A program made the position numbers and the translations under genes. This document shows positions 14,340 to 49,229 of a stretch of DNA of 64,000 nt, one piece after another. The stretch comes from a virus. The notes below the pieces were generated by a model, which saw nothing but the letters and a program-made list of their open reading frames with translations, was not told the origin of the DNA and ran no database searches. Within the stretch, counting starts at the first letter, position 1. Each line of letters opens with the position of its first letter. The stretch is from the IMG/VR virus record IMGVR_UViG_3300025012_000028, positions 150,554-214,553 of that record. One strand, written 5' to 3'.

Positions 14340-16073
14340 TTAATTAACCATATACCCAAATCCAGATTCATCTTTTAAAAAGTTCCTTGCGTCCAATTGT
14401 TCCCAACCGTCGAACCCGTAGTACGGCTGACTCGTTTTTATTTCAAATCCAATTCCATTTTCCAATTCAAAATCGGAATCAGTTAATAACAACATCACAG
14501 TTTTGAAATTCGTATATACTTTCATTGGTGCCTGATTCCATTTATTATCTACATCATTAATAAATGCCTCATCTTCTAGGTCGTTATATGTTTCCCCTCC
14601 AATTGTTATATCAAAACTTTTCAGCCCACCGTCTAAAGCAGACATCATTTCGTTATATCTGCCACCTTCAATACCTCTCTCCGCTGCCCATCTACATTGA
14701 GTATAAAGATCATCTCCCTCATCTTCCAAAAACTGGAACATATCATCTTCCCAATTTTCTTCATCCTCGTCCGGATATTCTTTTCTAATATACTCTTCAA
14801 CTTTCTTTTCGTCCAACATTTCATAACATTCTCTTATAGTATCATCACTCACTTCTATATCTGGGTCCGAATCTTGGTCTACTATCCATTTGGTTGTATC
14901 GTCACCATAATTTTCAACTAGGTCTTCTAAATCTCTGGCTTCATATATGACTGCAAATTCTTTCTTTTCATCCCACTCTAAAGAATGAAGATCTTTCGAA
15001 ATCCAGAGTTCATTCATTCTCTGCATAAATGAATCGGTTTTTCCTACTTTCTTATAATAATCCATCAAACCCATCAACTCGGGTCGTTGTTCAAATAAAT
15101 CTTCTTTAAATTCATCTGACAAATCTTCGGTACTAAAATCCGAATCTTGTCCATAAGAGGAACGTTCTATCCCTTTGATATAATAACTTTCGGTTCCCTT
15201 GGTTGATGTTACTTCTTTATGGAGCAGCAAATCCAGAATGTACTTGTGGTACTTCTCAACGGGTTTGGTATTTTGTTTGCCCTTCATTTGATATAAGATA
15301 TGATCATCACTACCCATCTCAAAAGTCAGATGGGGTTCCCATAACCACGTAGACGGTTCAGATTTGCGTTTGTTGAGGTATCGGAGGGAAAGTAAGGTAC
15401 TACCATGACTTCCAGTTCCGCAGTGTCCCATTGCCCTACTCTCGTTGCTACAGTAGTTGGTGTTGAGGTCTACCCAATACCAACCGTTCCCATACTCGAT
15501 TATAGGAAAACATCTTTTGTCTGGATAACCTTCTTCATGATCCAATGGTTGTTTGATATACTGAACTGTTCCATCTAACTCTGATGCCCATTCCTTTTCA
15601 ATCTTTTCCATATCGGCAAACACTTCTTCGGGGAATTTACCGGTAGGATTATAATCATCAATCTCTTTTAAGTGAAGATCCAGAAAGTGTTTATATTGAG
15701 TCAATGTTTTTCTAGGTAGAAAATCATTTTGCATTTTACTATCTAATATGTCGGGTCTATCCGCCAGATTAAATTTTTTACATTCGCTTTGTAAAAGTTT
15801 TTTGTAATATTGTTTTATGTTCTGTTCAGCAACTTTATCATCTAGAGTTAAATTGTCTAGTGTCCATGCCATATATATCTGCATTAATTTATTATACCAA
15901 ATAATTCTAAAATTCTTTTTTAAATACTCTGGCGATTGAAGAACATAAGATCTATAATATGTGTCGATTACCGGAGTAACTTTACCCAATTCCAAAACTT
16001 TGGTAAACATCTGCGAATAATCATATGCCTCAAGCAGCAGAGGAGCATGTAAAAAGGTTTTAAAAGAAATCAT
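14340..16073 (-). CDS. PcfJ-like protein with capsid-targeting-like N-terminus
   Basis: 577 aa. The N-terminus MISFKTFLHAPLLLEA resembles T4 capsid-targeting sequences, with a possible gp21-type cleavage after LLLE. The centre has YCSNESRAMGHCGTG, SLRYLNKR, a PHLTFEMG strand and YQMKGKQNTKPVEKYHKYI, the element order of PcfJ-like proteins (function unknown). The second half is very acidic (DEDEENWEDD...). The second of two adjacent ATGs was chosen for spacing to GAGGT. Predicted to be packaged in the head and possibly injected. Confidence 0.6.
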   Translation of the reverse strand: MISFKTFLHAPLLLEAYDYSQMFTKVLELGKVTPVIDTYYRSYVLQSPEYLKKNFRIIWYNKLMQIYMAWTLDNLTLDDKVAEQNIKQYYKKLLQSECKKFNLADRPDILDSKMQNDFLPRKTLTQYKHFLDLHLKEIDDYNPTGKFPEEVFADMEKIEKEWASELDGTVQYIKQPLDHEEGYPDKRCFPIIEYGNGWYWVDLNTNYCSNESRAMGHCGTGSHGSTLLSLRYLNKRKSEPSTWLWEPHLTFEMGSDDHILYQMKGKQNTKPVEKYHKYILDLLLHKEVTSTKGTESYYIKGIERSSYGQDSDFSTEDLSDEFKEDLFEQRPELMGLMDYYKKVGKTDSFMQRMNELWISKDLHSLEWDEKKEFAVIYEARDLEDLVENYGDDTTKWIVDQDSDPDIEVSDDTIRECYEMLDEKKVEEYIRKEYPDEDEENWEDDMFQFLEDEGDDLYTQCRWAAERGIEGGRYNEMMSALDGGLKSFDITIGGETYNDLEDEAFINDVDNKWNQAPMKVYTNFKTVMLLLTDSDFELENGIGFEIKTSQPYYGFDGWEQLDARNFLKDESGFGYMVN

Positions 16074-16076
16074 CAT

Positions 16077-16457
16077 TTACCTCAACGTCCCAAGTTTAAT
16101 AAAATCACCCGAATCTAACAGTTCGTGTACTCCGGTTCCATATTTCATCCCAGAATGTTTAACTGCATATTGACTTCCAGATTCCTCTTCACCTATAGTT
16201 TTTGTAAGATACATAGGGGAATCAAATTTAATATTCCAACTATAACCAGTCACCTGATAAACTTTACCAGTCTTATTTGATTTGAATCTATCACCCACTC
16301 CCAAGCGCCATCCTTGGTATGCCTCAATCTTTTCCATCATGTCTTTCACACCAAGCTTAATATCATCCCTCAATTTCTTATGAAACTCCCTTTCGGGTCT
16401 GGTGATAAGAGGAATGGGTTCTTTATCTTCGGTGATAAATTCTTTGAATGAAATCAT
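16077..16457 (-). CDS. Predicted internal head protein, 126 aa
   Basis: MISFKEFITEDKEP closely resembles the T4 internal-protein leader MKTYQEFIAE, with a prohead-protease-like site ITE at residues 8-10. The mature part contains a KOW/SH3-like stretch (GVGDRFKSNKTGKVYQVTGY). Not otherwise recognised. It is followed 3 nt later by another protein with the same leader. Confidence 0.6.
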   Translation of the reverse strand: MISFKEFITEDKEPIPLITRPEREFHKKLRDDIKLGVKDMMEKIEAYQGWRLGVGDRFKSNKTGKVYQVTGYSWNIKFDSPMYLTKTIGEEESGSQYAVKHSGMKYGTGVHELLDSGDFIKLGTLR

Positions 16458-16483
16458 GGAGTTATCCTATATGAATTTTTTAT

Positions 16484-16512
16484 TTGACAATTACGGATTT
16501 CGGAGTTAAAAT
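16484..16512 (+). promoter_or_regulatory. Promoter-like TTGACA-17-TAAAAT on plus strand
   Basis: Near-consensus sigma70 match in the 114-bp non-coding gap between two head-protein genes, but pointing against all neighbouring genes. Downstream are short GGACA/TGTCC repeats that could fold. It may make an antisense or small RNA, or be chance. No gene seen in the gap. Confidence 0.35.
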
Positions 16513-16571
16513 AATCTTGTCCGTTAGGACATAGACATCTACTGCCTTTTATTATAGGACAATGGACAATC

Positions 16572-17003
16572 CTAGAAATCATCATCTTCATCGGGAGGAA
16601 TGACTTCTACAACATCATATTTCTCACCAATATATTTATTTGAATATAAAAAGTCCTTCATATCTTCTACATCGACCCAACCTAATTTAAGATTGGTGGA
16701 AGTCAGAGTTATAATGCAGCTATACTTTTTAAATTTCTTCATTTCTCCAACAAAGTTAATTTCCAAACACAGAGGTTTTTCTAATTCAAATTTCCGCGCA
16801 ACATCTGTATGTAGAATGGTATCCCCGAAACCATAAACAATTTCACCATCCACAACAACTACTCTCATGATATCCCAACTCTTAACAACCTCTATGGATT
16901 TGATTTCATCAAAGGTGGGATTTTCGAATATAAGTTGTTCCTCACGCTTATACATGTAGGAATCTTTATAATTTTCGGATAAAAATTTTTTGAATGATAT
17001 CAA
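16572..17003 (-). CDS. Predicted internal head protein with TTG start, 143 aa
   Basis: Starts at TTG with GAGGAA 8 nt upstream, giving (M)ISFKKFLSENYKDS, the same leader as its two neighbours; this conservation is the main argument for the TTG start. Possible cleavage after LSE. The mature part is a mixed alpha/beta domain ending in a very acidic tail (PPDEDDDF). Function unknown. Confidence 0.6.
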   Translation of the reverse strand: MISFKKFLSENYKDSYMYKREEQLIFENPTFDEIKSIEVVKSWDIMRVVVVDGEIVYGFGDTILHTDVARKFELEKPLCLEINFVGEMKKFKKYSCIITLTSTNLKLGWVDVEDMKDFLYSNKYIGEKYDVVEVIPPDEDDDF

Positions 17004-17006
17004 TGG

Positions 17007-17162
17007 TTAGTTCCTCGAATGGTTATGTTTACCGTTAGAATGATAATCATTATTAAGGAGTCGTCTCAGTGCAAGATCAAAACGTCTAGCAAGTAAAAAA
17101 TCACACTCAGATATCGACTTGGCCTTTTCTCTTCTCAATCCTTCGATGATTAGTTGTTTCAT
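17007..17162 (-). CDS. Small basic protein, 51 aa
   Basis: Read directly: MKQLIIEGLRREKAKSIS, then LLARRFDLALRRLLNN and a His/Asn-rich tail. Mostly helical and basic. Ends 3 nt before the TTG of the head-protein gene. About 55 nt separate it from the tailspike gene; that gap holds no gene. Confidence 0.55.
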   Translation of the reverse strand: MKQLIIEGLRREKAKSISECDFLLARRFDLALRRLLNNDYHSNGKHNHSRN

Positions 17163-17216
17163 AACACAATAACCTAAGATGGTAATAACAAAATTATCAT
17201 GTCAGTGGTGCTACTT

Positions 17217-20200
17217 TTATACTAGTGTTAATGTGGTACTCCGCACTGTGCCGTCCGAACCCTTGACTTTTACCGTCAAGGTAGTGTTGTCGGTCAACTC
17301 GAAAGTCATTTCCCCGTTTACTGTTGGTGTTGCCGACGTGAGGGGAAAAGCTGAAACGTAATCCGTTGTAGGGGTGTAGGCTGCTGTACCAAGGTTTGAT
17401 GATTTCACCAGCCCGTTTATTATAAACGTCGAATAAACCCCACCGTCATTAGTGAGTAGATAACCATCGCCGGTCCCTTGATCTTGTTCATACTGGTTAA
17501 TGATAGTTGCCATCATGATGATGCCATCATGAACTGAGACCAAGGAGCCAGAGCCGAACACTGTGGACCCACTTAGACCCGCCCCCGGTGTGGCTTCTCG
17601 TGCCTGAAAGATTGTGCCGACTGCATTGGACGTAGAAACATACCCGACTTGAAGCGGCGTAAAATCAGCATCGGTGTTATTTAGTATCTTATACCACCCT
17701 CCGACCTCAATATTCGTCAAGTTCGTATAAGAAATCGGCGTGCTGGCGAAAATGGCCCTCGATTGCCGTCCAATTCCCTGTTTTGATCTCAGATCGTCAC
17801 CATTGACCCTGAGATTAAGCATATAATAGTTACCAAGAACCACACCGTAACGAACTGCTGGTGTGCCGGAAACATACCCCCCATTGCCATCTACTGTCAT
17901 ATCGAGAGTGCTGGCATACATTCCATAACTAGAGTTGCCCAACCGGAATCCGTGTGAACCGTTCTCTTGTGCTTCTATTGTACCTTGGTGGTTCGCTCCG
18001 GTGAGAATTACCGCACCTTCAAAGTCATTAGCAGCAGTACCGAAATATGGAACAATATCGACAGATGAACCTGTGGTGGAGATGTTGAGCCGTCTAGAAA
18101 GAAAAACTTTGATGTCGGAATACTGAATATTCTTGTTTGCGAATCTCGCCGCCAAACCCCAGTGCATTGCACCGCCAATCTGGATTTTCGACAATTTGCT
18201 ATCGTTGGCCTTGCCGAGGTCCAGCCCCGAACCATCGACCCGCTGAACAATCAGCCCCTCAATTACTAGGTTGCTAGCGTACCCTTCATCGTTACTAACA
18301 ACCACGCCGTGACCACCACTCAACAGATGCGCTCCAGTGCCGGAATCGCGGATATCGTCGGCTGCGAACTCCTCGCGTAGGCCGTACACGCCTCCAGCGG
18401 CCCCCGATCTGTGTCCCGCGAAGAATTCAACTCTGGTGTCGGAAAGCGTCCGGGAATAAGTGTTGTCCACACCTTGGGCAATGTATATGCCGCTCCCCAC
18501 CGAGAACAACCCCCCACCAGCCTGACCATCGACCGTAAGCCCATGGATAGACCCGTACGCGCCGGTCCAGCGAATGACATAAAGCAAGGCGTCAGCGGCG
18601 TCATCTCCGGAAGGTTTGAATCGTATCTTACTGGACGCTGAACCATCCCCGATGAGATGCACTTTTGATTTCAACTCAACATCACGCCACCACGTAACCC
18701 CGCGCGGGACAAAAACGGAGCCGCCGTTTAGCGCGGCTTGCACATCAATCGCGGCTTGCGCGGCTGCCGAATCGTCCGAGCCGTCATATTTCGCGCCGAA
18801 CCATTTAACGTTGACCGCCCCGGTGTAATCCCTCAGCCATGCAGCCGAACCGTCGCCGCCTGTCGGCACAATGACGGTGCCGTTGTTGTCGGTGTAGGTG
18901 CCCGGTGAAGCACCTGAAACCCAACGGAAATGACCTCCCCCACCATCTCCTGCCGAAGTGTGATTCTCAAGGTATATAGATGGCACAGTGCCGTTCGTGA
19001 TGCCTCGTAACGCCGTGAGGTTTGTCACGACCAAGCCATCCATAGCATCTTGCACCGCCTTGACCGCTGCCGAGTTCGCCGCCGTGGTTGTGGAGTTAGA
19101 AGTAGTGGAGGATGAAAGCTCCGATGTTGATACAATATCCCCGAACTTTAAACCACCCACAACTTTCGATGGGTCGAAATTGTGTGGACCCACAAGTACC
19201 GGTTCTAGTGCTGCCGCCACATCAACTTCAGTAGTAGGAGGATATGTCTCTGAGTTAATTTTTCGGAAGGATAAGATTGTAGTTCGTGAAGCATTACCAT
19301 CTATCAAAAGATGTTGTGCATCGGGCGCTGCCGCAGCACCTATGGTGTCCTGTCTTGACATTCCCGAAATAATACTGTTACCTTCCCCACCTGAAATACG
19401 GTAGCTCCTGCCGGGAAACTCAGCAGACCTGTTAATGTTGGCTTCCACACCGGACCCACTCAGAGTTACGGCGTTAGCACCGTCCAACCAAAAACCTAGT
19501 CCGGCCTGTTCGATATATGTGCCGTTTATATTGACTGTAGTTGGACCATATAGATAGACCCCAAGGATAATATCTCGTACACTAGAACTAATAAAAGTAT
19601 GACCGTCACCACCATCTATAAATATTCCGGCATAACCACCTTGAAAAATTTTGACCTGATCATAGGTACAAAATGCACCAGTACCCACATAAAGTGATAT
19701 ATCATTGAGGTAACGTAGATGAACATTACGTACAGTCAAATTAGTAAGTATTTCTTGGGAGCTAACATGAATATCAATACCTTTATTCCCCGTGCCGACC
19801 CATTGACCCGGACCATCTATCCCAAAATTGGATAGATATACCCAATCTGTATCGACACCTAACAATGCTGGACCATCAAAGTCAGCCTTGATAAGTCCTG
19901 AGTCCAATGGTGACACACCGAAAATACGATGTCCGTCGCGCAGTGTAAGGGGTGCTGATATTTTACACCATGCCGGAAGTAGTATACTAGTTTCTGAGTC
20001 AAGTACAGCCTGTATTGCAGCTCTATCATCCGTTATACCGTCACATACAGCGCCTCTTGTTTTAACATTGACCGCATGTGTGTCTATCTGATCCTGCACC
20101 GCCTTGGTTAAAGAGTTAATTGAAGTTTTAACCGAATTACCATTTTGAACAATAGGTACTTTTTCTAAACCAGATAGTGGTATCGTAGCTTCATTAAATT

Positions 20201-20219
20201 CAGATATTTTCTTTGCCAT
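17217..20219 (-). CDS. Tailspike with two beta-helix domains, 1000 aa
   Basis: The N-terminal anchor MAKKISEFNEATIPLSGLEKVPIVQNG is shared with the spike at 24.5-26.8 kb. Residues about 55-330 form a pectate-lyase-like right-handed beta-helix (TRGAVCDGITDDRAAIQAVLD, then repeated G/N turns). A second such start, VKWFGAKYDGSDDSAAAQAAID, is near residue 470 and leads a second helix. The C-terminus is beta-sandwich-like. Likely a host-glycan depolymerase. The part encoded between about 17.5 and 19.1 kb is much more GC-rich than the first 350 codons, indicating mosaic origin. Confidence 0.8.
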   Translation of the reverse strand: MAKKISEFNEATIPLSGLEKVPIVQNGNSVKTSINSLTKAVQDQIDTHAVNVKTRGAVCDGITDDRAAIQAVLDSETSILLPAWCKISAPLTLRDGHRIFGVSPLDSGLIKADFDGPALLGVDTDWVYLSNFGIDGPGQWVGTGNKGIDIHVSSQEILTNLTVRNVHLRYLNDISLYVGTGAFCTYDQVKIFQGGYAGIFIDGGDGHTFISSSVRDIILGVYLYGPTTVNINGTYIEQAGLGFWLDGANAVTLSGSGVEANINRSAEFPGRSYRISGGEGNSIISGMSRQDTIGAAAAPDAQHLLIDGNASRTTILSFRKINSETYPPTTEVDVAAALEPVLVGPHNFDPSKVVGGLKFGDIVSTSELSSSTTSNSTTTAANSAAVKAVQDAMDGLVVTNLTALRGITNGTVPSIYLENHTSAGDGGGGHFRWVSGASPGTYTDNNGTVIVPTGGDGSAAWLRDYTGAVNVKWFGAKYDGSDDSAAAQAAIDVQAALNGGSVFVPRGVTWWRDVELKSKVHLIGDGSASSKIRFKPSGDDAADALLYVIRWTGAYGSIHGLTVDGQAGGGLFSVGSGIYIAQGVDNTYSRTLSDTRVEFFAGHRSGAAGGVYGLREEFAADDIRDSGTGAHLLSGGHGVVVSNDEGYASNLVIEGLIVQRVDGSGLDLGKANDSKLSKIQIGGAMHWGLAARFANKNIQYSDIKVFLSRRLNISTTGSSVDIVPYFGTAANDFEGAVILTGANHQGTIEAQENGSHGFRLGNSSYGMYASTLDMTVDGNGGYVSGTPAVRYGVVLGNYYMLNLRVNGDDLRSKQGIGRQSRAIFASTPISYTNLTNIEVGGWYKILNNTDADFTPLQVGYVSTSNAVGTIFQAREATPGAGLSGSTVFGSGSLVSVHDGIIMMATIINQYEQDQGTGDGYLLTNDGGVYSTFIINGLVKSSNLGTAAYTPTTDYVSAFPLTSATPTVNGEMTFELTDNTTLTVKVKGSDGTVRSTTLTLV

Positions 20220-20819
20220 TTAGATAAACCCCTTTGAAGCAATAAAATATGCGTCCGTCAAATCCCATCTACCACTACTCATAGAGTATTTAGAAAATTC
20301 ATTTTGAATGTTTTCAGGAAGCTTACAAAAAGTTCTAAATTTTATGTTGGTAGATAAGATCAAATCAATATTATCTTTAGAAAATTGTAGTTTATCTTTT
20401 CTAGTCATTTCTTTATAACCGGCCTTTTCTTTGAGAGAAAGCAATTCTTTTTTTGTAAGACCTAACTCTTTATTCTCTACCTTGGAAAATAGTGGTGACC
20501 GCCATTCCATCACTTTAAAAACCTTCAAAGGTATAGTGGGAAAATCTTGTTTAATTTTGATACGCAAATACCAGTTCTGCCCCGCAATAAGATCCTTTTC
20601 GCCGGAAGGAGAATCATATGATAAATCTTCTAACGTCAACATATCCGGTTTGCAAAATGAAATGAAACTACAAATTTCATTTATATTATGAATTAATAGT
20701 GCTTCATCATTCAAATCTTTAGATGATGATTGAATGAGTTTATAATCAAACAAATTTTTATCTTCTAATAAACAAAGTCCAGAAGATCGTAATGACAAAT
20801 CTATACCTAAAATCCTCAT
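20220..20819 (-). CDS. RuvC-like Holliday junction resolvase
   Basis: 199 aa, about RuvC length. RNase H-fold nuclease that cuts four-way junctions. Acidic residues are in RuvC order: D7 in ILGIDLSLRSSGLCLL, E64 in LTLEDLSYDSPSGEKDLIAG, and D186/D189 in RWDLTDAYFIA. Resolvase activity would trim branched DNA before packaging; T4 uses endonuclease VII instead. Unusually, it sits between a tailspike and a tail-fibre chaperone gene, overlapping the latter by 4 nt. Confidence 0.75.
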   Translation of the reverse strand: MRILGIDLSLRSSGLCLLEDKNLFDYKLIQSSSKDLNDEALLIHNINEICSFISFCKPDMLTLEDLSYDSPSGEKDLIAGQNWYLRIKIKQDFPTIPLKVFKVMEWRSPLFSKVENKELGLTKKELLSLKEKAGYKEMTRKDKLQFSKDNIDLILSTNIKFRTFCKLPENIQNEFSKYSMSSGRWDLTDAYFIASKGFI

Positions 20820-21373
20820 ACTCTTATGTCTACCATATTAAGTTTTATTTCCGTATCTACTTCTTCTGATAATACTTGATCAATCATATTGCATCTTACT
20901 GCCCATTTACTTTGTACATATGAGAAAATTGATCCGATCATTTCTTTAAATTCAACAAAAGATAGTTGTTGTGTATTATTATCTGCATCACGTATACTCA
21001 TAATTTGATCTGGATTTAATTGCCAAACCATCAAAAGTTTTACCCAATCTATTTGTGCTTCATTTGTAATATCTATATTAAATGTTTTGTTTGTAGATAA
21101 TTCAATTTGTAACTTATAAAGTAATGAATCGATATAATTGGTTTTAATGTTGACCACTTTTTTATTTTTTAAAATATTTAAAGGAACCGGACTGGGGATA
21201 AATGGTTCTTTAACTCCGTTCTTAAATATCCATTTACCTTGTTCAGAAATAAATGATCCCCAATCTTCATCAGATATATTTATTGCTTCTATTGGAATGT
21301 TCGTTGGATCATGTGTATCATCTGAAAAAAAAGCTTGTGGATGACCATCTTCATCAAAAATACCAAATTTCAT
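20816..21373 (-). CDS. Tail fibre assembly-type protein with DUF4376-like domain
   Basis: 185 aa. MKFGIFDEDGHPQAFFSDDTHD is a typical fibre-associated N-terminus. Residues 125-175 (LNPDQIMSIRDADNNTQQLS, FKEMIGSIFSYVQSKWAVR) match the pattern of DUF4376 proteins, which accompany tail fibres. Likely a chaperone or cap for the 381-aa fibre just upstream. Confidence 0.65.
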   Translation of the reverse strand: MKFGIFDEDGHPQAFFSDDTHDPTNIPIEAINISDEDWGSFISEQGKWIFKNGVKEPFIPSPVPLNILKNKKVVNIKTNYIDSLLYKLQIELSTNKTFNIDITNEAQIDWVKLLMVWQLNPDQIMSIRDADNNTQQLSFVEFKEMIGSIFSYVQSKWAVRCNMIDQVLSEEVDTEIKLNMVDIRV

Positions 21374-21382
21374 AAAAACTCC

Positions 21383-22528: not shown

Positions 22529-22538
22529 ATAATCCCCA

Positions 22539-24428: not shown

Positions 24429-24458
24429 TTAAACCTCAATATAAATATACTTTATTGT

Positions 24459-24466: not shown

Positions 24467-24469
24467 ACA

Positions 24470-37792: not shown

Positions 37793-37800
37793 TTATAAAT

Positions 37801-40382: not shown

Positions 40383-40564
40383 TTATTAGTTCCTTTATAA
40401 TAATCGTTATGCCACTCAGGACAGTTTTGGTTCCTCCCATACCCATAATATTGGGATATCGAGACAACTTCTAACCATTTGGTTATACCTTTCAATCTCA
40501 GAGGAAAAAATAAAAACTTAGTAACAGTTCTAATTTCTCCAATTGATGGGTGGGTAAATGTCAT
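40379..40564 (-). CDS. Hypothetical protein, 61 aa
   Basis: Basic and aromatic (TVTKFLFFPLRLKGITKWLEV, QYYGYGRNQN). 4-nt overlap with the rnh start and 35-nt overlap with the previous gene. Not recognised. Confidence 0.5.
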   Translation of the reverse strand: MTFTHPSIGEIRTVTKFLFFPLRLKGITKWLEVVSISQYYGYGRNQNCPEWHNDYYKGTNK

Positions 40565-40784
40565 TTGTTAGTTCCTTTAATTCATTCTTGAATTTATCTT
40601 CATTTCTTTTTTCTTGGTTGGTTTTTTGTTTGAAATATTTACGTGGATTACCACACATAAAACAAGAACACGGAGTAGGAGTTTCAACAACCATTCCCAA
40701 TTCTTCTTTCGATAATACACGGTTCCAATGAGTCCGTCTATTATTTTTTAATCTTTCTATGTGGTGTCTGCGAATAGCTCTCAT
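40530..40784 (-). CDS. Conserved small phage protein with RRHH and CxxCGNPRK, 84 aa
   Basis: MRAIRRHHIERLKNNRRTHW ... ETPTPCSCFMCGNPRKYF is a family met in very many tailed phages, with an arginine/histidine start and a CxCxxC-GNPR knuckle. Role unknown; probably a zinc-bound nucleic-acid protein. Confidence 0.75.
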   Translation of the reverse strand: MRAIRRHHIERLKNNRRTHWNRVLSKEELGMVVETPTPCSCFMCGNPRKYFKQKTNQEKRNEDKFKNELKELTNDIYPPINWRN

Positions 40785-40788
40785 AAAC

Positions 40789-40953
40789 TCACTTAATTAC
40801 AATTGGTTTAGTTTTGCTCGCCTCAACAAAAACCTTTTTCTTATCCTTGGTGTAGAACATAACCCCATTCTTATTGGTGGGGGATAACAGTCTCAATAAT
40901 TCAATTGATGTTAGATCAATAGCAACTGCTTCGATATTTGGAAGTTTGTTCAT
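40789..40953 (-). CDS. Small hypothetical protein, 54 aa
   Basis: Read directly: MNKLPNIEAVAIDLTSIELL ... FYTKDKKKVFVEASKTKPIV. Strong CAAGGAGAAC site. Beta-rich. Not recognised; downstream of the helicase gene. Confidence 0.6.
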   Translation of the reverse strand: MNKLPNIEAVAIDLTSIELLRLLSPTNKNGVMFYTKDKKKVFVEASKTKPIVIK

Positions 40954-40990
40954 ATAGTTCTCCTTGGGGAAATTGTACTACTTATATTTA

Positions 40991-42370: not shown

Positions 42371-42437
42371 CAATTACTCCATAAACTAATAAAGTACCAA
42401 ATTCTATTAACGGTTCAATATTGTCTTTAGAAATCAT
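42360..42437 (-). CDS. Possible 25-aa peptide
   Basis: MISKDNIEPLIEFGTLLVYG then VIDAD. AGGAGAG lies 5 nt before the ATG, inside the previous gene; the stop overlaps the gp41 start region, so it may couple translation. Short; could be incidental. Confidence 0.4.
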   Translation of the reverse strand: MISKDNIEPLIEFGTLLVYGVIDAD

Positions 42438-42816
42438 GGAATCTCTCCTGTGCTATATCCACGACCAGCGCAACCGCAATCTCTTTAGAGACTTCCGACA
42501 CTATCTGTTTATATATTTCAAATTTATCGACATTCCCCGATAAACGGTCCACCTTTATCTGACCCTTTATTTCTTTTCCATTCAGGTTTACAATGTATCT
42601 ACAATTCCTTTTGAACGAAATATAATCATCATAAATATAACCACAAACGTTCAGAATGTTATTATTGATTTGAAATGAATCTAGAATGGAATTATAAGCT
42701 TTCTCTTTCATCTCTTCATAGAGTTTAATACTTTCATCCGTGGGAGCACGGTTGATTGTAACACTCTTTTCATATGGTATATAATCTGTTCTTGAGTTGT
42801 AATGTTTATCGAACAT
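42427..42816 (-). CDS. Hypothetical protein, 129 aa
   Basis: Helical first half (TDESIKLYEEMKEKAYNSIL) and a beta-rich middle (FKRNCRYIVNLNGKEIKGQIKV). Resembles a common T4-type small protein of unknown role. Abuts the QueC-like gene. Confidence 0.6.
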   Translation of the reverse strand: MFDKHYNSRTDYIPYEKSVTINRAPTDESIKLYEEMKEKAYNSILDSFQINNNILNVCGYIYDDYISFKRNCRYIVNLNGKEIKGQIKVDRLSGNVDKFEIYKQIVSEVSKEIAVALVVDIAQERFHDF

Positions 42817-43440
42817 TTAGAAATGCTCCTCTTCTTCATTGGTAAAAGCTTCAACTGCCCTCGCCAGTTCGGGAGGATTGATAATATCTTCCATTCTCTT
42901 ACAAGAAGGGCAATTATCTTTATTGGGTTCTCCGTGATGGTTTTCACACCATGTCACATAACAACGAATTTCTTCAGGTATCCCATTCCAAATTTCATGC
43001 TTTTTAATTTGTGTAATCGGGAATATGAGCTTGGGCAATTCGGATCGACATAGCCCTTGCATTGAATTGTAGATGGTTTTAATTTCATCCAGAAACGAAA
43101 TTGCATCATCATTCATTACATAACCAATCGCAACCTCATCAACATCTTGAGGGATGATATAAGGCAACATTAAGAACAGAGGGGGATAAGACAGACACCA
43201 ATTATTATTACTGCACCTGACTGAGAAATCGATTGGTTCACCGATATATTCAAAGTTCCACTTCTCAAAAAACGGTCGTATTTTGGAGATTGCTTCTAGT
43301 TCTCGTTTGGTCTGTTCACCATTACCAACCAGATTTATATAACCCGCCTTGACTTTATGCCCTTCTTTTAAAAGACGCCAAATCAAATAGGTACTATCAA
43401 CACCACCACTCCAAAGAACAAATTTAGTTTTTTCTTTCAT
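42817..43440 (-). CDS. queC: QueC-like PP-loop enzyme (7-cyano-7-deazaguanine synthase family)
   Basis: 207 aa. N-terminal PP-loop WSGGVDSTYL (residues 10-19) for ATP; central EVAIGYVMNDD; C-terminal zinc cysteines in RCYVTWCENHH and NCPSCKRM, matching the QueC Cys set. QueC converts carboxy-deazaguanine to preQ0. Phage versions serve 7-deazaguanine DNA modification or queuosine. Other pathway genes (folE, queD, queE, dpdA) are not in this window, so the role is inferred. Confidence 0.75.
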   Translation of the reverse strand: MKEKTKFVLWSGGVDSTYLIWRLLKEGHKVKAGYINLVGNGEQTKRELEAISKIRPFFEKWNFEYIGEPIDFSVRCSNNNWCLSYPPLFLMLPYIIPQDVDEVAIGYVMNDDAISFLDEIKTIYNSMQGLCRSELPKLIFPITQIKKHEIWNGIPEEIRCYVTWCENHHGEPNKDNCPSCKRMEDIINPPELARAVEAFTNEEEEHF

Positions 43441-43616
43441 TTTGATTGTCTTGCCTCTCTATATTGTTCTATGTATTTTTGATAATCTTCAAGGTTCTTA
43501 TTGTTGAGTTCAAATAACATATGAAAAGCATTACCCACTCTCAAAGGAGGACCAAGAGGAGGTTTTGAAATATCGATAATATTTTCTCCTTTAGGATCAA
43601 ATATTCTCAATTTCAT
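43437..43616 (-). CDS. Small hypothetical protein, 59 aa
   Basis: Read directly: MKLRIFDPKGENIIDISKPP ... NAFHMLFELNNKNLEDYQKY. ATGA overlaps on both sides. A strand-turn start and a C-terminal helix. Not recognised; same operon as queC. Confidence 0.6.
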   Translation of the reverse strand: MKLRIFDPKGENIIDISKPPLGPPLRVGNAFHMLFELNNKNLEDYQKYIEQYREARQSK

Positions 43617-43786
43617 TTCATCTTCCTTACTTCTTTACGTTTAACATCTCGTTTTTCTTTGGTATCATATAGACACGGTTTACCATCTTCCATTACATGG
43701 TGCCACGCTCCATCAACTAATACATCCAAACCATAACTAACTGTCATTGTGGTTGTATTCAACCAATCGTTCGTTTTTGTTCTCAT
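43613..43786 (-). CDS. Small hypothetical protein, 57 aa
   Basis: Read directly: MRTKTNDWLNTTTMTVSYGL ... DGAWHHVMEDGKPCLYDTKE and a lysine-rich end. Strong AAGGAGAAAAT. First gene of the queC operon, after a promoter hairpin. Confidence 0.6.
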   Translation of the reverse strand: MRTKTNDWLNTTTMTVSYGLDVLVDGAWHHVMEDGKPCLYDTKEKRDVKRKEVRKMK

Positions 43787-43804
43787 ATTTTCTCCTTAAA
43801 AATA

Positions 43805-43856
43805 AATAAGAGCTATCAATATGTTTCATGATAGCTCTTATTATTTCGGAAGTCTA
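43805..43856 (-). promoter_or_regulatory. Combined terminator hairpin and early promoter (PeSL-like)
   Basis: 14-bp perfect stem (43805-43818, 43829-43842; loop 10) with a TTATTTATTTTT tail on the minus strand. Promoter TAGACT (43851-43856), 17 nt, TATCAT (43828-43833). It ends the head-protein pair and starts the queC-gp41 operon. Confidence 0.75.
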
Positions 43857-43873
43857 TTAATTTTTATGTGAGT

Positions 43874-44143
43874 TTACGCTAATCTGTCCAGAAGATATTT
43901 AGTTTTAATTTTCCCATATTTTTGGTATTCACCAATCATCTGTTTCATCAAATCCAACTTTTCCTGTTCTTCGGGAGTCATAGAATCGAACTTCACAATT
44001 GCCTTGGAAATCTTTTTGAACACGTCTGATATTACTCCTTCTGTTAGAGTTTTGTCGGATGTGATTCTTTTAATTTCTTTAAGGTAGAAATTTAAATCTT
44101 CAGTTTCAGTTAATAGATGTAAAGTCTTCTGGAAATTGTTCAT
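43874..44143 (-). CDS. Predicted internal head protein, 89 aa
   Basis: MNNFQKTLHLLTETEDLNFY: an amphipathic leader ending LLTE, like a capsid-targeting and prohead-protease site. The mature part is helical and basic/acidic (SDVFKKISKAIVKFDSM, EEQEKLDLMKQMI). Directly follows a sister gene of the same type from one late promoter. Confidence 0.5.
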   Translation of the reverse strand: MNNFQKTLHLLTETEDLNFYLKEIKRITSDKTLTEGVISDVFKKISKAIVKFDSMTPEEQEKLDLMKQMIGEYQKYGKIKTKYLLDRLA

Positions 44144-44485
44144 CTATTTTTCTTCCTTGGGAACTTTACCAACCTCAAAAATCCCCTCGTTGTCAGTTGC
44201 CGTGCTCAACTTGAAAGCTTTGATGATGTCAGCAGCTTTACACCCCTTCAGTGGTTTGCACATAGCTGCAAGCTTCTTGAGGGTACCATAACCGGCAGTT
44301 GGATTTTCTTTAATATAAGCCTTTTGAACATTTCTATATTGGTCGGCAGTAGCCCTTTCCTTGAACTTGAGAATGGTTTTACCATCGGGAAGCACAACCC
44401 CATTCTCTTCTCTTGATTCTACAATCACTTCTGTTTCTTTCGCTTCAGTAAGCGTCTTCAGAATTCGGTTAAAATTGTTTTCCAT
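44144..44485 (-). CDS. Predicted internal head protein, 113 aa
   Basis: MENNFNRILKTLTEAKETE: leader with LTE|A cleavage-like site. The mature part VVLPDGKTILKFKERATADQ then a lysine-rich helix; ends VGKVPKEEK. A late promoter 27 nt upstream supports a virion role. Confidence 0.55.
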   Translation of the reverse strand: MENNFNRILKTLTEAKETEVIVESREENGVVLPDGKTILKFKERATADQYRNVQKAYIKENPTAGYGTLKKLAAMCKPLKGCKAADIIKAFKLSTATDNEGIFEVGKVPKEEK

Positions 44486-44510
44486 TTATGTTTCTCCTTG
44501 AAAGTTTATT

Positions 44511-44690
44511 TTATTTATAATACCAACTAATCTTTACTAATGATCCATCAACTTTATCTACAAAACTACCCAAGTAATCATCTTGTTGAAGCGTTCCAGA
44601 ACGTATGATAGGTTTGATGGAAATTGAATCTGGAGGTCGCACATTGACACAACCAGAAAGAAAAATACATATTAAAATCATTTTAAACAT
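44511..44690 (-). CDS. Small lipoprotein, 59 aa
   Basis: Read directly: MFKMILICIFLSGCVNVRPP, a short signal peptide with lipobox LSGC (Cys14 would be lipidated), then about 45 residues (DSISIKPIIRSGTLQQDDYL...). Probably an outer-membrane-directed lipoprotein; size and topology would suit an o-spanin or an exclusion lipoprotein. The SD GAGGGA is in the 3' arm of a hairpin that also holds a late promoter. Confidence 0.65.
   Translation of the reverse strand: MFKMILICIFLSGCVNVRPPDSISIKPIIRSGTLQQDDYLGSFVDKVDGSLVKISWYYK
44512..44519 (-). promoter_or_regulatory. T4-type late promoter TATAAATA
   Basis: Exact TATAAATA on the minus strand, overlapping the lipoprotein's last codons and 27 nt before the head-protein gene start. 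Confidence 0.75.
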
Positions 44691-44691
44691 A

Positions 44692-44729
44692 GAAATCCCT
44701 CATTACGTTTATTTATAATGAGGGATTTC
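44692..44729 (-). promoter_or_regulatory. Hairpin with embedded late promoter; terminator of uvsX
   Basis: 14-bp perfect inverted repeat (44692-44705, 44716-44729) with a 10-nt loop carrying the late promoter TATAAATA (44710-44717). uvsX read-through RNA would pair the lipoprotein SD (GAGGGAT) with the upstream arm. RNA begun at the late promoter (near 44704) lacks that arm. This is the arrangement known for T4 gene e. Confidence 0.8.
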
Positions 44730-44734
44730 TTTTC

Positions 44735-45940
44735 CTATTCTGTTACTTCTTCTACTTCAAGATCATCGGCAATCCCTTCGGAAGCTGAACAATAATTAAA
44801 CTTGGCTCTCATATAATCGGCCAATCCATGTTTCAAAAACTCTTCCCAAAATGCGGGAGTCATTTTCGCCTTGGTCATAAGATCATCTTTCTTATGAGCT
44901 AAGGAAGGTATTTTTTCAGGATTGATCTTATAGGAACTCTTTTCCTTCAGAAAGATTCCTTCTTCCTCATAACAGAATTCGAACAGACCGGAATAAGGTG
45001 TAAGCCCTTCTTCAAAATCAATATTGAACTTGATTTTAGTTTTCTCTTTTGCGGTCCTACATTTGACATTGGTGCTTGTGATCCTCGCCCCAATTACTTC
45101 ATCTTCTTTATCATTCTTAACCTGTGCTTTTGAGAAATCACTAATGATGGAGGAATTGTAAAGCGAACCTTCACCACCCGATATCACCTTACCACCATAC
45201 CCACCAATCTGAGAATATACATGGTTGATGGGAACGATAGGAACATTTTTGATACCAGCTTTGAGTGTTACTGTCCTGAACAATGCGCGGAGTGCCTGTT
45301 GCTTTGTCATATCCCTTGAATCAGTTCCAGTGGTTTTATCCGCAAGTTCTTTCTTCGAACTGATATTACCAATGGAGTCGATACCAATAAAAACTTTATC
45401 ATCGGGATCGAGTTCATCGATTATGTTGATCAGTTGTGTATTAAGTTCTTCAATGGTAGGAACCGGAATGAACAGCATGTTCTCAGTATCAATTCCACGT
45501 TTCTTCAGATCTTCTTTGGAGTTGTTGGACATCTCAGTTTCAAATAGAACGAAGAAGTATCCAAGGTCGCGCTGTGCGTGTTTAGCAGTCTCTAACATGA
45601 GATAAGTCTTACCGACCGAGTTCAGACCCGCCAATTGCCACACCCTACCAGACGGCATACCCTTATACGGATCGCCACTAATTTGAGCATTGAAAAGATA
45701 ATTACCAGTATTAATCCAGTCACGGATGGGATACTTATCTATTTCGTTGTCGCCCATTAACTGCGCGTACTCAGAACCAGACACATGTTTCAGACGTTCA
45801 CCAAAAGACATTGCTTTCTTTTTAGCTTTTTCTTCGGCAGAATTGTCTTTGAGAATTTTCTTCTCTTCTTTTGAGAGTTTGATGTTGTTTTCTAATTTGA
45901 TTTTAAGTTCTTTCAACACGTCTTCTGAAACAATAGCCAT
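44735..45940 (-). CDS. uvsX: Recombinase UvsX (RecA-like)
   Basis: 401 aa (T4: 391). Strand-exchange ATPase. GRVWQLAGLNSVGKTYLML holds a fuller Walker A (GLNSVGKT) than T4 UvsX; FFVLFETEMSNNSKEDLKKRGI, then VFIGIDSIGNISSKKE with Walker B, and PINHVYSQIGGYGGKVISGG for the L2/DNA-binding region. The C-terminus is acidic. Ends at a hairpin that carries a late promoter. Confidence 0.92.
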   Translation of the reverse strand: MAIVSEDVLKELKIKLENNIKLSKEEKKILKDNSAEEKAKKKAMSFGERLKHVSGSEYAQLMGDNEIDKYPIRDWINTGNYLFNAQISGDPYKGMPSGRVWQLAGLNSVGKTYLMLETAKHAQRDLGYFFVLFETEMSNNSKEDLKKRGIDTENMLFIPVPTIEELNTQLINIIDELDPDDKVFIGIDSIGNISSKKELADKTTGTDSRDMTKQQALRALFRTVTLKAGIKNVPIVPINHVYSQIGGYGGKVISGGEGSLYNSSIISDFSKAQVKNDKEDEVIGARITSTNVKCRTAKEKTKIKFNIDFEEGLTPYSGLFEFCYEEEGIFLKEKSSYKINPEKIPSLAHKKDDLMTKAKMTPAFWEEFLKHGLADYMRAKFNYCSASEGIADDLEVEEVTE

Positions 45941-46162
45941 TCACACTTCTCCTTTAGTATTTCTCGTCAAGTAAAAAACCACACCGGTTGGTGCTGATAA
46001 TGGTTCTATTCCAACCAATTCTTTCGCATTTAAACTAGGATAAACTCTTTTGCCTAATAAAGTGAAGAATCGTTCTACAAATTTCTTATGGTACTTTTTC
46101 CTTATTCGTTTCTTTTTATGAGTGATGAATTTGAAATAATTTATGTGGCGGTTTCTTTTCAT
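45941..46162 (-). CDS. Conserved small phage protein with PTG motif, 73 aa
   Basis: Very basic N-terminus (MKRNRHINYFKFITHKKKRI), then a C-terminal LVGIEPLSAPTGVVFYLTR, which is like the GVQPM..PTGLIF strand motif found in T4-type capsid and other structural proteins. A family of such small proteins occurs in T4-like phages; role unknown. Confidence 0.65.
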   Translation of the reverse strand: MKRNRHINYFKFITHKKKRIRKKYHKKFVERFFTLLGKRVYPSLNAKELVGIEPLSAPTGVVFYLTRNTKGEV

Positions 46163-46362
46163 TCGTCACAAACTCCCTTCCATGCATCATAAAGTTCATA
46201 CCAATCTTCTTTCAACTCATAATATCTAGGCGCAGTTTCCCCACCAAATTTTTCATTCAGGAACTTGACTATATGTTCCCCATAGAACTTTCCCACATTT
46301 TCAACAACCAGTTCATCACTGACAGAATCTCTATCGAAATTATCCTTTCCCACAATTTTCAT
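46159..46362 (-). CDS. Hypothetical protein, 67 aa
   Basis: MKIVGKDNFDRDSVSDELVV, EHIVKFLNEKFGGE, ending DAWKGVCDE. Typical helical small phage protein. 4-nt overlap with its neighbour. Confidence 0.65.
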   Translation of the reverse strand: MKIVGKDNFDRDSVSDELVVENVGKFYGEHIVKFLNEKFGGETAPRYYELKEDWYELYDAWKGVCDE

Positions 46363-46595
46363 TATTTCATTACTCCTTTGGTAAATGGAAAGATGAATTC
46401 TGAATGATATTCATCACTCAACTTTGTGGGTTTCTTGCCTATTTCTATATCAAACACTTGTGGAAGATGTCTAAATGAATCCCACATATCTGTTATAGAT
46501 AACAGAAATTGTTGAACCTCTTCGGTATTATTGAAAATTCTAATGGAGGTTTGATGAATTGTTCCTAAATGTCCAAATGGTGTGAGCATTAACAT
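46362..46595 (-). CDS. Hypothetical protein, 77 aa
   Basis: Two nearby ATGs; the start is uncertain by two codons. Beta-rich with RIFNNTEEVQQFLLSITDMW. 1-nt overlaps on both sides. Not recognised. Confidence 0.6.
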   Translation of the reverse strand: MLMLTPFGHLGTIHQTSIRIFNNTEEVQQFLLSITDMWDSFRHLPQVFDIEIGKKPTKLSDEYHSEFIFPFTKGVMK

Positions 46596-46795
46596 TATTT
46601 GTAATTCTCCAAATTATCTTTCATTTCCTGATGAAATATACTTCCACTCGCAATGTAAGTGGATTTGTTTGTGTCCAGATATTTATCCATCTCTCTGATC
46701 AGTTTTATTGCAGCATGTAGTCTTAATTGTGAATCTGTTGTGGTCATGGGAATGTATGGTGCATAAACATATCCCGGTTCAAAATCTGTTTTCAT
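46595..46795 (-). CDS. Hypothetical protein, 66 aa
   Basis: MKTDFEPGYVYAPYIPMTTT, then a helix RLHAAIKLIREMDKYL. Resembles a small family common in T4-type phages. Role unknown. Confidence 0.6.
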   Translation of the reverse strand: MKTDFEPGYVYAPYIPMTTTDSQLRLHAAIKLIREMDKYLDTNKSTYIASGSIFHQEMKDNLENYK

Positions 46796-47140
46796 TTAAA
46801 GATCCTCTTTTTCAAACATAAAAGTTTTGAATGGAGTTACCACGCTGCACCTTTCCTGTTCCAAGTTCTTCATCAGAATTTTGGCGAGTGTATATGCCTT
46901 TTCGTTGATGTTGTTGGCGGTATCTGGGAACCGAGGATAGTTGATTAGACCCACAATAATTCCCGGTTCATCACCTTCCACATAAACAAAATTGGTAAGA
47001 GTAATTGTAAGACCAAGTTTGACCTTATCACAATAATCCTTACACATTTTAAATGCCATTTCAAATGGCATCACCTTTTCCGAATAACCAGAACGCAGAC
47101 CCATATAAATTTTTACTTCATGTGTATTACATTTTTGCAT
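46796..47140 (-). CDS. Hypothetical protein, 114 aa
   Basis: Mixed alpha/beta: VKIYMGLRSGYSEKVMPFEM, KLGLTITLTNFVYVEGDEPG, KAYTLAKILMKNLEQER. Reminiscent of small phage ferredoxin-like folds; no assignment. Confidence 0.6.
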   Translation of the reverse strand: MQKCNTHEVKIYMGLRSGYSEKVMPFEMAFKMCKDYCDKVKLGLTITLTNFVYVEGDEPGIIVGLINYPRFPDTANNINEKAYTLAKILMKNLEQERCSVVTPFKTFMFEKEDL

Positions 47141-47402
47141 TATCAGTTCCTTTATAGATTAGATTTAGAACTATATGATCAATGTGTTTACTAAGTGTGA
47201 TGATATCTTGAGCAAGTTTTTCTTCTTCGAATATATTACATTCTCTCCACAATACACATTTTTCTTTACCATCATAACCACAAAATCCACACCACTCATT
47301 GGTATCGTTGAGACATTCTTTTGAGGGCGGCATATGCCCAAAACATCGTTTAGGATATATACCGTTGGTAAGATTTTGAATGTCCTCTAAAGAATAGTTC
47401 AT
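47127..47402 (-). CDS. Cysteine-rich hypothetical protein, 91 aa
   Basis: Six cysteines (CFGHMPPSKEC, WCGFCGYDGKEKC, EC) in residues 20-55 make a probable metal site; a C-terminal helix follows. Overlaps the next gene by 14 nt. Confidence 0.6.
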   Translation of the reverse strand: MNYSLEDIQNLTNGIYPKRCFGHMPPSKECLNDTNEWCGFCGYDGKEKCVLWRECNIFEEEKLAQDIITLSKHIDHIVLNLIYKGTDNAKM

Positions 47403-47539
47403 TACATATTCTCCATAAGAGTTTCACTTACACTTTCCTTATAAGATGCCATTACTTCATTCCTACCCCATCCAGTTTTAACTTGAAGCTTTTGAGCAAA
47501 CACTTCCTCAATTCGTTTAAGCAATTCTTTAGTGTTCAT
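47402..47539 (-). CDS. Conserved small phage protein with KTGWGRNE, 45 aa
   Basis: Read directly: MNTKELLKRIEEVFAQKLQV then KTGWGRNEVMASYKESVSE. The KTGWGRNE core with flanking helices is a frequent small protein in T4-type phages. GGAGATA precedes the ATG. Role unknown. Confidence 0.7.
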   Translation of the reverse strand: MNTKELLKRIEEVFAQKLQVKTGWGRNEVMASYKESVSETLMENM

Positions 47540-47572
47540 AAAAAATATCTCCTATAAATGTTAAATATCATA

Positions 47573-48859
47573 TCACGGAAAAACAGGATCGATTTTCGAT
47601 AAAATAGATTTAATTTGGTCAACTTCTTCTACACCATAATCGTGGTATTGTTCCATAAGATCGAATATGACACCACAAGATTGAAACGCCCATTTTCTAG
47701 AAAATGGGTATCCTTTCCCGTCGTTGTCGGAATCTACATATCTCCACACTTCCTGTAAAAAGGTTTTAAAATCCGTCTTAGAAGCGTTTCGTAAAATGCT
47801 TCGGTGATCGCCAATAAAAGTTAGTGTTGAGTTATGAGATGGTGGTACTAATCCAGTTCTCAAAAAGTTTAAAATTCTAGACATGTCAGATTTATCTCTG
47901 AATAACAATTCATTTATTTCGTCTAATGATCTGACAGCTTTAGTGAGATAGTCTTTATTGTTGAGTTTATCTATAACAGTAAAGGCATCTTTGGAAAGAA
48001 AGAACGCTTGCATAGGTTCGGATGGATGGATATAACCACGTCCCGATTTATCTGCAAAACCAGTATAGCCACAGGTTCTCAACACCCAATTCCACTTGGA
48101 TGAAACCACATTACCATATGACGCAGTAGCCACAAACATCGCCACAAAGCGCGACATCTGCCAAAAGGCCATGATAGGATTTTCTTCTTTCCTAGTCTCC
48201 AAACACACAGCAACCAAAACCATCCAACATTCAGAAACGAATTTATCGATCAATTTTGGATTTATAATATATTCATAATTTTCTGAAATGAAAAATTTAC
48301 TTTTGAAATTGTCCCTAAAATCCCTGTATATCTCATTGCTCGGATATTCATTGATCGTGAATAATCTCTGCAACAAACCATGCATGTCCATAAAACGATT
48401 TCCAGCTTCAAATTCTTTGGCGCGTTTCATGAAGATGTTTCTGAGAGTTCTGTAATCCGCATCATAATTATTACTGGTGTAGTTGGAATACATATCATTC
48501 ACAAACCCATCGGAGTCTTTCGCTTTCAGAACCCACATAAAAGGTCTATCAGCAGCGAAAGGAAGACCCCTTAAAGACTTCGTTCTGTCTACCTCATATT
48601 TCTCCCACGCCTCTACAAGTGGATAACAGTAAATGCCCAATGGTGTGTTGTAATTCGATCTAGGATTTATACCTATCTTTGTCTGACCTCTGTTCTTCTG
48701 TTTTAAATTTGATCGTTGATGATTAACCAAATCATCCGTAAACCCAATGTAAATGGTCGGATCGTTCTTATACTTCTTCAGATATTCGTATGCGGAAATC
48801 TTGGGATTAGAATCGGGGTGGGATCTTGCTTCAGCTATAAATTCCTTGAATCGTATCAT
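47573..48859 (-). CDS. Predicted internal head protein, 428 aa
   Basis: Start MIRFKEFIAEARSHPDS after AGGAAGG; the leader is nearly identical to T4 IPI-III (MKTYQEFIAE), with cleavage expected after IAE. The body has a phage-wide motif set: TPLGIYCYPL, LPFAADRPFMWVLK, and CGYTGFADKSGRGYIHPSEPMQAFF, seen in large phage proteins thought to enter the host. Function unknown. A late promoter lies about 90 nt upstream inside the small gene before it. Confidence 0.65.
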   Translation of the reverse strand: MIRFKEFIAEARSHPDSNPKISAYEYLKKYKNDPTIYIGFTDDLVNHQRSNLKQKNRGQTKIGINPRSNYNTPLGIYCYPLVEAWEKYEVDRTKSLRGLPFAADRPFMWVLKAKDSDGFVNDMYSNYTSNNYDADYRTLRNIFMKRAKEFEAGNRFMDMHGLLQRLFTINEYPSNEIYRDFRDNFKSKFFISENYEYIINPKLIDKFVSECWMVLVAVCLETRKEENPIMAFWQMSRFVAMFVATASYGNVVSSKWNWVLRTCGYTGFADKSGRGYIHPSEPMQAFFLSKDAFTVIDKLNNKDYLTKAVRSLDEINELLFRDKSDMSRILNFLRTGLVPPSHNSTLTFIGDHRSILRNASKTDFKTFLQEVWRYVDSDNDGKGYPFSRKWAFQSCGVIFDLMEQYHDYGVEEVDQIKSILSKIDPVFP

Positions 48860-48969
48860 CACAATCCTTCCTGAAAACATTCATCACATTGTTCGTCTTC
48901 GATATGATCATGTTTGAAATATTCTCTACCACACACTTTACAGATGTATTTATATATGTGTTTTTTCAT
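48859..48969 (-). CDS. Zinc-finger microprotein, 36 aa
   Basis: Read directly: MKKHIYKYICKVCGREYFKH then CDECF: CxxC-x15-CxxC with basic flanks. Its stop overlaps the next start (TGATG), and its start overlaps the previous stop. Confidence 0.6.
   Translation of the reverse strand: MKKHIYKYICKVCGREYFKHDHIEDEQCDECFQEGL
48947..48954 (-). promoter_or_regulatory. T4-type late promoter TATAAATA
   Basis: Exact TATAAATA on the minus strand inside the 36-aa gene, about 90 nt before the 428-aa head-protein start. It would not include the microprotein start. Confidence 0.5.
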
Positions 48970-49229
48970 TCCTCTTTGAGTTTAGAAACTTTAATGTTCC
49001 TGATATTGAAAGCACCATCCCCATCGATTCCAAAGGATTTCTTTTGATCGACATCCCCATCAGGATCTACGATAACCTCAAAAGAATGTCCACCATCACT
49101 ATTGCTCTTGATGTGCTCCAACATCCTCTGCAACGAGTTTTCACTATCACTTACCTGAATGGTGATGATGGTATCACCCTCCGATTTATACTCATTCAGA
49201 ATGTTCAAAATGTCTTGATACTTCTTCAT
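48966..49229 (-). CDS. Predicted internal head protein, 87 aa
   Basis: MKKYQDILNILNEYKSEGD: a leader of capsid-targeting type with LNE site. The mature part TIITIQVSDSENSLQRMLEH ... GHSFEVIVDPDGDVDQKKSF is a small alpha/beta domain. Late promoter 26 nt upstream and GGAGGAAG before the ATG. Confidence 0.55.
   Translation of the reverse strand: MKKYQDILNILNEYKSEGDTIITIQVSDSENSLQRMLEHIKSNSDGGHSFEVIVDPDGDVDQKKSFGIDGDGAFNIRNIKVSKLKEE

Follow-up and report, generated by a model that had tools for sequence, protein, structure and literature searches.

A T4-like N-terminal leader recurs on unrelated proteins of a large uncultured phage and may address them to the head

Introduction

Phage T4 packages a handful of internal proteins whose functions are mostly still obscure, and the cargo of such T-even internal proteins changes among relatives. 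Here we describe a short N-terminal leader, similar to that of the T4 internal proteins, in a large uncultured phage represented by the IMG/VR record IMGVR_UViG_3300025012_000028 (214,553 bases). The analysis centered on a 64,000-nucleotide window, bases 150,554-214,553 of the record, and the rest of the genome was also read so that the leader could be traced genome-wide; plain coordinates refer to the window, and the prefix C1: to genes outside it. We use class A for the ten-residue leader M-I-S-F-K-x-[FY]-[LI]-x-E and class B for long-spaced leaders of the MNNF, MENNF or MKKY type, with a slash marking the predicted cut. A strict rule, taken from published T4 mutagenesis, calls for an aromatic residue at positions 4 and 7, L, I or M at 8, and E at 10.

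Leader genes and their promoters

The original prediction for this window was that seven proteins share a T4-like N-terminus. All seven N-termini are present at their genes, each with a Shine-Dalgarno-like sequence, and the number is an undercount, given about 20 class A leaders genome-wide. The seven are not one uniform set, however: four belong to class A (one as a variant), and three are long-spaced and more weakly supported. All lie on the minus strand. The first class A gene (14340..16073, its start corrected to 16073) encodes a 577-residue protein with an MGHC motif, homologous to gp31 of Salicola phage SCTP-2; its variant leader, MISFKTFLHAPLLLE/A (16029..16073), has no Glu at 10 and carries L-x-E at residues 13-15. 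Two further proteins, both with cargo that matches no family, are a 126-residue product (16077..16457) with the leader MISFKEFITE/D (16428..16457) and a 143-residue product (16572..17003), initiated at a TTG codon, with the leader (M)ISFKKFLSE/N (16974..17003). The fourth, of 428 residues (47573..48859), starts not at 48880 but at an internal ATG at 48859 that has its own ribosome-binding site; its leader is MIRFKEFIAE/A (48830..48859), and members of its family elsewhere carry different N-terminal tags.

The long-spaced proteins comprise 89 (43874..44143), 113 (44144..44485) and 87 residues (48966..49229), and their leader-like N-termini are MNNFQKTLHLLTE/T (44105..44143; spacing +3, compare MNNFIKTLNLLQE at C1:107680), MENNFNRILKTLTE/A (44444..44485) and MKKYQDILNILNE/Y (49191..49229). 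An (L/I)xE ending had been expected of every leader; it is displaced in the 14340 variant, and in class B, where the T4 spacing 4-7-8-10 is not kept, the Glu falls at 13 or 14, i.e., 3-4 residues later. Once cleaved, the seven proteins would be about 74 to 562 residues long, compared with a predicted range of 79 to more than 560.

The T4 late promoter, TATAAATA, lies 20-60 nt upstream of the genes for the major capsid protein (MCP), protease, portal, sheath and tube, and occurs at 19 sites in the window against 6.7 expected. Of the 11 leader gene heads (all classes), 6 have this sequence 20-60 nt upstream, compared with 14 of 70 other heads (p 0.023); no such site directly precedes the 14340-17003 group, and in the large leader cluster outside the window one stands 35 nt before the first gene. 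Three gene groups in the window had been credited with a late promoter directly upstream. Sites lie at 44512..44519 (34 nt upstream of the 44144 gene), at 49255..49262 (33 nt upstream of the 48966 gene) and at 48947..48954 (95 nt upstream of the corrected start of the 47573 gene); all three are on the minus strand. As a separate observation, the sigma-factor-like gene at 57998-58759 resembles the sigma-32-like factor of SCTP-2 (E 2e-42) and is a candidate late sigma factor for these promoters.

The three class B proteins, and only these, might alternatively be ordinary small phage proteins whose amphipathic N-terminal helices look leader-like by chance, an explanation to which we assign somewhat less than an even chance. 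Their spacing departs from T4 positions 7, 8 and 10, and although it occurs six times genome-wide against 0.66 expected, the rule was made post hoc and drawn from three of the six, so the three leaders are only moderately supported. Late promoters 33-34 nt upstream of two of the gene heads count against chance resemblance and argue for a role related to that of class A; moreover, a sibling, MNNFIKTLNLLQE, is located in the structural region and likewise has a late promoter, and the T4 Alt leader, cut at ITE-6, is also of another length (PMC5694885). We regard the three as a probable extension of the capsid-targeting class, plausible if unproven.

Recurrence of the leader in the genome

Across the 214,553-bp genome the class A leader opens about 20 otherwise unrelated proteins. 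When one mismatch is allowed, the DNA pattern occurs at 16 places, all on the coding strand (control, 0), and four variants (C1:139217, C1:145059, C1:145649 and 14340 in the window) bring the number to about 20. Ten leader genes form a single cluster, C1:138168-146913, just left of the window, with many 4-base head-to-tail overlaps. What the proteins share is their first ten or so residues, in which positions 4 and 7 are hydrophobic or aromatic, position 8 is L or I and position 10 is E. The strict T4 rule selects 15 proteins genome-wide, compared with a mean of 0.09 after shuffling (maximum 1, 200 shuffles), and none of 867 internal Met positions. Chance in an AT-rich sequence was rejected on the basis of the shuffled, internal-Met and coding-strand controls and of the reversed-codon control described below. 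A second group, at C1:110832-114303 (MSILESILNE, MNIFDSILKE, MKILNKILSE and MSILHKILEE), follows the pattern MxILxxILxE, with hydrophobic residues at 4, 7 and 8 and E at 10, positions that are the same as in class A.

If the shared N-terminus reflected common descent, with one family duplicated many times and then diverged, tandem paralogs would be a natural sign of it, and some do occur among leader genes (C1:82935/83858 in this genome, 14 in contig G034 and 3 in L042). The codons, however, point elsewhere. Within the genome, leader codons are 82-84% identical at positions 1 and 2 and 52% at position 3, and codons for the same amino acid agree in 57% of cases, compared with 48% downstream of the leader. 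Because the first two positions are alike and the third has diverged, selection has acted on the peptide, and recent copying does not account for the leaders. Beyond about residue 10 the identity is lost, and codons 12-20 are at background at all positions; we conclude that the leaders are old, have been conserved as peptides and extend to about the predicted cut. Since the mature parts are also unrelated (ADP-ribosyltransferase [ART], GNAT, kinase, HEAT repeats and folds without a match) and third codon positions have diverged, common ancestry of whole proteins was rejected; homologs occur, moreover, with other leaders, and descent from one family is very improbable.

A 170-residue leader open reading frame (ORF), C1:143578-144090, resembles the 47573 family by eye and overlaps C1:142505-143641 in another frame; the pair is possibly one frameshifted gene or two genes.

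The leader in other viruses

In a collection of 2.9 million viral contigs, the class A pattern matched at least 120 stretches, nearly always at gene starts, whereas a reversed-codon-order control in the same contigs matched 17, mostly non-genes. Among the matches listed, 108 of 112 complete leader ORFs were at least 50 residues long, compared with 3 of 16 control ORFs, and about 88 proteins were distinct from one another after the leader. Column 8 was L or I in 82 of the 88 distinct metagenomic leaders even though the pattern also allowed F and M. A set of 41 contigs held 95 leaders and no reverse-pattern controls, and a gp21-type protease was present in 16 of the 19 leader contigs of at least 79 kb, compared with one of six contigs in a small control set. 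Neither the 14340 gene nor the C1:138168 ART found a related locus in a search of viral contigs, and the leader strings had no match in the phage literature searched.

Run on T4, a DNA pattern of this kind served as a positive control and returned ipII, ipIII and gene 61.1 only; among ten isolate records, leaders occurred in T4 (these three genes) and P-SSM2 (one gene) alone. Gene 61.1 (NC_000866 18966-19130), which adjoins 61.2, encodes 54 residues starting MKTFKEFIKE; this start fits the capsid-targeting pattern perfectly, and the product is a possible additional T4 internal protein. In the first 23 kb of contig G034 (L170-L171), about 14 tandem paralogs of 440-630 residues share the leader MI[RSTK]FKxFLLE, continue with YLTDEQRKRF and then carry HEAT/LRV-type repeats, the copies differing in size.

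Head machinery and comparison with T4

The genome encodes a T4-type portal (gp20; PF07230, 2e-108), MCP (gp23; phrog_138, 5e-93), scaffold (gp22; phrog_237, 6e-23) and head protease (gp21; phrog_207, 1e-48), as well as a second capsid-type, vertex-like protein (phrog_138, 3e-40); a 7.3-kb structural stretch has no DNA-level similarity to known phages. Aligned with T4 gp21, the protease keeps the catalytic His and Ser motifs (GECGHP, GTSTRG). L-x-E stands directly before the mature domain in both the MCP (YLME/D) and the vertex-like protein (FLKE/S), and likewise in the capsid-type precursors of relatives (YLNE/N, FLKE/S, HLME/T). A 79-residue ORF at C1:104326-104565 (L007:9326-9565) repeats the MCP cleavage region (EDMEGSTSLGDVSQFTPIL versus LMEDGSTSLNDFTQYTPIL) ahead of a very basic tail, and may have arisen from the capsid gene as an internal peptide that is cut.

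In T4, L/I-x-E is the site after which gp21 cleaves, ten N-terminal residues of IPIII are enough for packaging, and mutagenesis assigned IPIII residues 4 and 7 to targeting and 8 and 10 to processing; a capsid-targeting sequence of this kind has been suggested as a general loading route in T4-like phages (PMC9026906). The conserved columns of the leader described here are exactly these IPIII-mapped positions 4, 7, 8 and 10. Like T4 IPI, IPII and IPIII (MKTYQEFIAE), the leader proteins have ten N-terminal residues with F/Y at 4, F at 7, L/I at 8 and E at 10, a gp21-type protease and gp22-type scaffold in the genome, and cargo that varies among relatives; unlike them, they number about 20 rather than a few, begin MISFK rather than MKTYQ, and include many enzymes, whereas the T4 internal proteins are small and basic. 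T4 Alt is likewise an ART in a T4-type head (the head placement being predicted in our case) with an N-terminal propeptide ending in L/I-x-E, but the cargo here comprises several different ARTs of the ART-PolyVal type (one fused to GNAT) rather than the Alt family, and the leader is IPIII-like, not Alt-like. The inner-body and ejection proteins of phiKZ and SPN3US, too, are head components that a gp21-related protease cleaves after Glu and that are ejected, although several of their propeptides exceed 100 residues (PMC5694885).

Cargo proteins

Several leader cargoes in this genome match nothing, and those that can be assigned are diverse. C1:138168 is an ART-PolyVal fused to a GNAT acetyltransferase (PF18760, 70.5 bits; curated cut-off 31.2), C1:141690 is an ART-PolyVal (33.2 bits, same cut-off), C1:59011-59424 is GNAT-like by motif, as judged by eye, and C1:140489, C1:86165 and C1:58479 are ART-like by a YHxT motif, the leader of C1:58479 being less clear. 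C1:146233 matches the T7 gp0.7 kinase/host shut-off family (phrog_15752, 4e-6) and keeps the glycine-loop and catalytic-loop motifs (H-x-x-N and I-D-P-like); whereas gp0.7 is an early product in T7, C1:146233 has a head leader and a late promoter, and would therefore arrive pre-made. Cargo in relatives includes ART-PolyVal, HEAT-repeat and zeta-toxin-like proteins, the last below cut-off. When this genome is compared with its relative G002, core genes are 40-55% identical, but among leader genes only the ART has a clear ortholog; thus, the address stays while the cargo changes.

Within the window, none of the seven proteins (14340, 16077, 16572, 43874, 44144, 47573, 48966) has a convincing Pfam or PHROG family, and 14340 has no PDB sequence match. 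The predicted structure of the 47573-48859 product is of low confidence (mean predicted local distance difference test score 64) and has no PDB fold match; consequently, motif order and a weak profile match (hhalign probability 45 over 23 columns) are all that suggests an ART fold, and the protein is a possible divergent ART. A family with a GxGTKWC-like motif also carries the leader (C1:139217, C1:112171, L216:29525-42463) and has several tandem copies in SCTP-2; its Cys could be catalytic.

Leader exchange between lineages

Homologs of leader cargo occur in other phages behind different N-termini. In SCTP-2, which has annotated gp20, gp21 and gp23 homologs, the homologs of C1:139217, C1:145649 and 14340 are clustered within a single stretch of 16 kb and begin MKVKHITQYLFE/S, MKVKQITEAISS and MRLNNLFE/S (the last being gp31), with siblings beginning MKIRHLYE/N and VKITELFE/S. 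When C1:139217 is aligned with four SCTP-2 homologs, the leaders share little and similarity starts at LVE/SFADA and LFE/SFKDA, i.e., at the predicted cut. The 47573-48859 protein has a homolog with the leader MNRFRKIYLRE beside the terminase of contig G046, which encodes a gp21 (1.5e-40), and homologs in contig G045 (294,944 bp; L182, L194-L197) with the Glu-free N-termini MKVKEVVLA, MKITNVEIS and MRIHWVEVS. Because the tag changes between lineages while homology, in the case of C1:139217, begins at the predicted cut, the leader behaves as an exchangeable module bordered by that cut.

The G045 tag, M[RK]-x-[VI]-[VI]-[IL]-[AS] (e.g., MRKVVLAK, MRKVIIAG, MKITNVEISA), opens 14 of 114 ORFs read, against 0.39 expected under a post-hoc rule, among them an ART-like protein and three paralogs of 47573-48859. 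A phrog_207 match in G045 was not counted as a protease, as it sits in a zinc-ribbon-like ORF. In Dickeya phage JA13 (MH460460, 140001-190000; L217), about ten genes, mostly annotated as hypothetical, encode the N-terminus M-x-[IV]-x-[VI]-S-[LI]-S (MQILVSLSN, MELLISLSK, MEIEVSLSA, MKTVVSISA), including an ART homologous to C1:138168.

That related cargo can carry Glu-free tags (MRKVVIA in G045, MQILISLS in JA13), which need no gp21-type cut, raises the alternative that the leader directs sorting within the cell or the assembly of a complex (for example, at a phage factory or with one host protein), stays uncut and has no connection with head packaging. We consider this unlikely: the conserved positions are those of T4 targeting and processing, gp21 is usual in large leader-bearing contigs, the cargo swap falls at E/S, and late promoters stand at leader genes. 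A broader proposal is that large phages generally deliver a shared, fast-exchanged pool of effectors, with a short N-terminal head code particular to each lineage: MISFKxFLxE here, MKxxHITQYLFE in SCTP-2, M[RK]KVVIA[KS] in G045 and M-x-[IV]-x-[VI]-S-[LI]-S in JA13, the two Glu-free codes being read by a different packaging or processing system. We put the chances of this at about even; if it is true, the tag alone would list the injected arsenal of a phage from its sequence.

A model of packaged effectors

The explanation that we favor, and consider very probable, is that the leader is a modular, cleavable propeptide of the T4 capsid-targeting type, carried by injected effectors. Under this model, leader proteins would be made late in infection, and leader residues 4 and 7 would draw them into the prohead core, probably through binding to the gp22-type scaffold. 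Cleavage after Glu10 by the gp21-type protease would then free the mature enzyme inside the head, to be injected with the phage DNA and to act on the new host before phage genes are expressed. Cargo would turn over quickly among ADP-ribosyltransferases, acetyltransferases, kinases and folds without a match, with the leader being kept; and because cargo changes fast while the leader stays, the leader behaves as a plug-in address. The occurrence of one tag on about 20 unrelated proteins, including likely enzymes, suggests an arsenal loaded into the head for injection with DNA. The original prediction of a packaged, cleaved and probably injected set of unrelated proteins is thus supported as a reading: the leader and its recurrence, selection on its peptide, the head machinery and the exchange at the cut site are seen in the sequences themselves, and packaging, cleavage, injection and any effects on the host are deduced from them.

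Several observations weigh against this model. The 14340 leader does not have Glu10, the residue after the cut (P1') varies among leaders, and the class B spacing is broken relative to T4. The gp21 comparison relies on a control set of only six contigs, and five leader contigs (G013, G014, G019, G020 and G024), which may be fragments, have no gp21 match. Furthermore, the strict pattern was not matched in four T4-like isolates (S-PM2, KVP40, HTVC008M and Vibrio D490); the leader is therefore not universal.

The capsid-targeting sequence is already known from T4, and packaged, injected phage ARTs have been proposed from comparative genomics, i.e., from fusion to head proteins and gene neighborhood (PMC9503650). 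As in those polyvalent proteins, ART domains are here predicted to be head-packaged and injected, but the argument comes from a separate short leader, predicted to be cleavable, on stand-alone proteins. Relative to the literature searched, four aspects are new: the scale on which a single phage uses the leader, a leader consensus that extends over environmental viruses, the types of enzyme bearing it (a T7-type kinase included), and the exchange of lineage-specific tags at the cleavage point.

Being readable from sequence, the leader points to about 20 candidate injected effectors in this phage and to about 88 distinct candidates among the viral metagenome matches listed, most without a known fold, such that what a phage injects besides DNA becomes a testable question, genome by genome. 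Under the model, ADP-ribosyltransferases, acetyltransferases and a T7-type kinase would be present ready-made at time zero of infection. The natural leader variants also offer material for work on protein loading into phage heads.

A neighboring gene

Between uvsX and the leader genes, positions 44511-44690 of the window encode a 59-residue protein with a lipoprotein-like signal (LSGC), perhaps a lysis protein of the spanin type; the gene stands immediately after its own TATAAATA.

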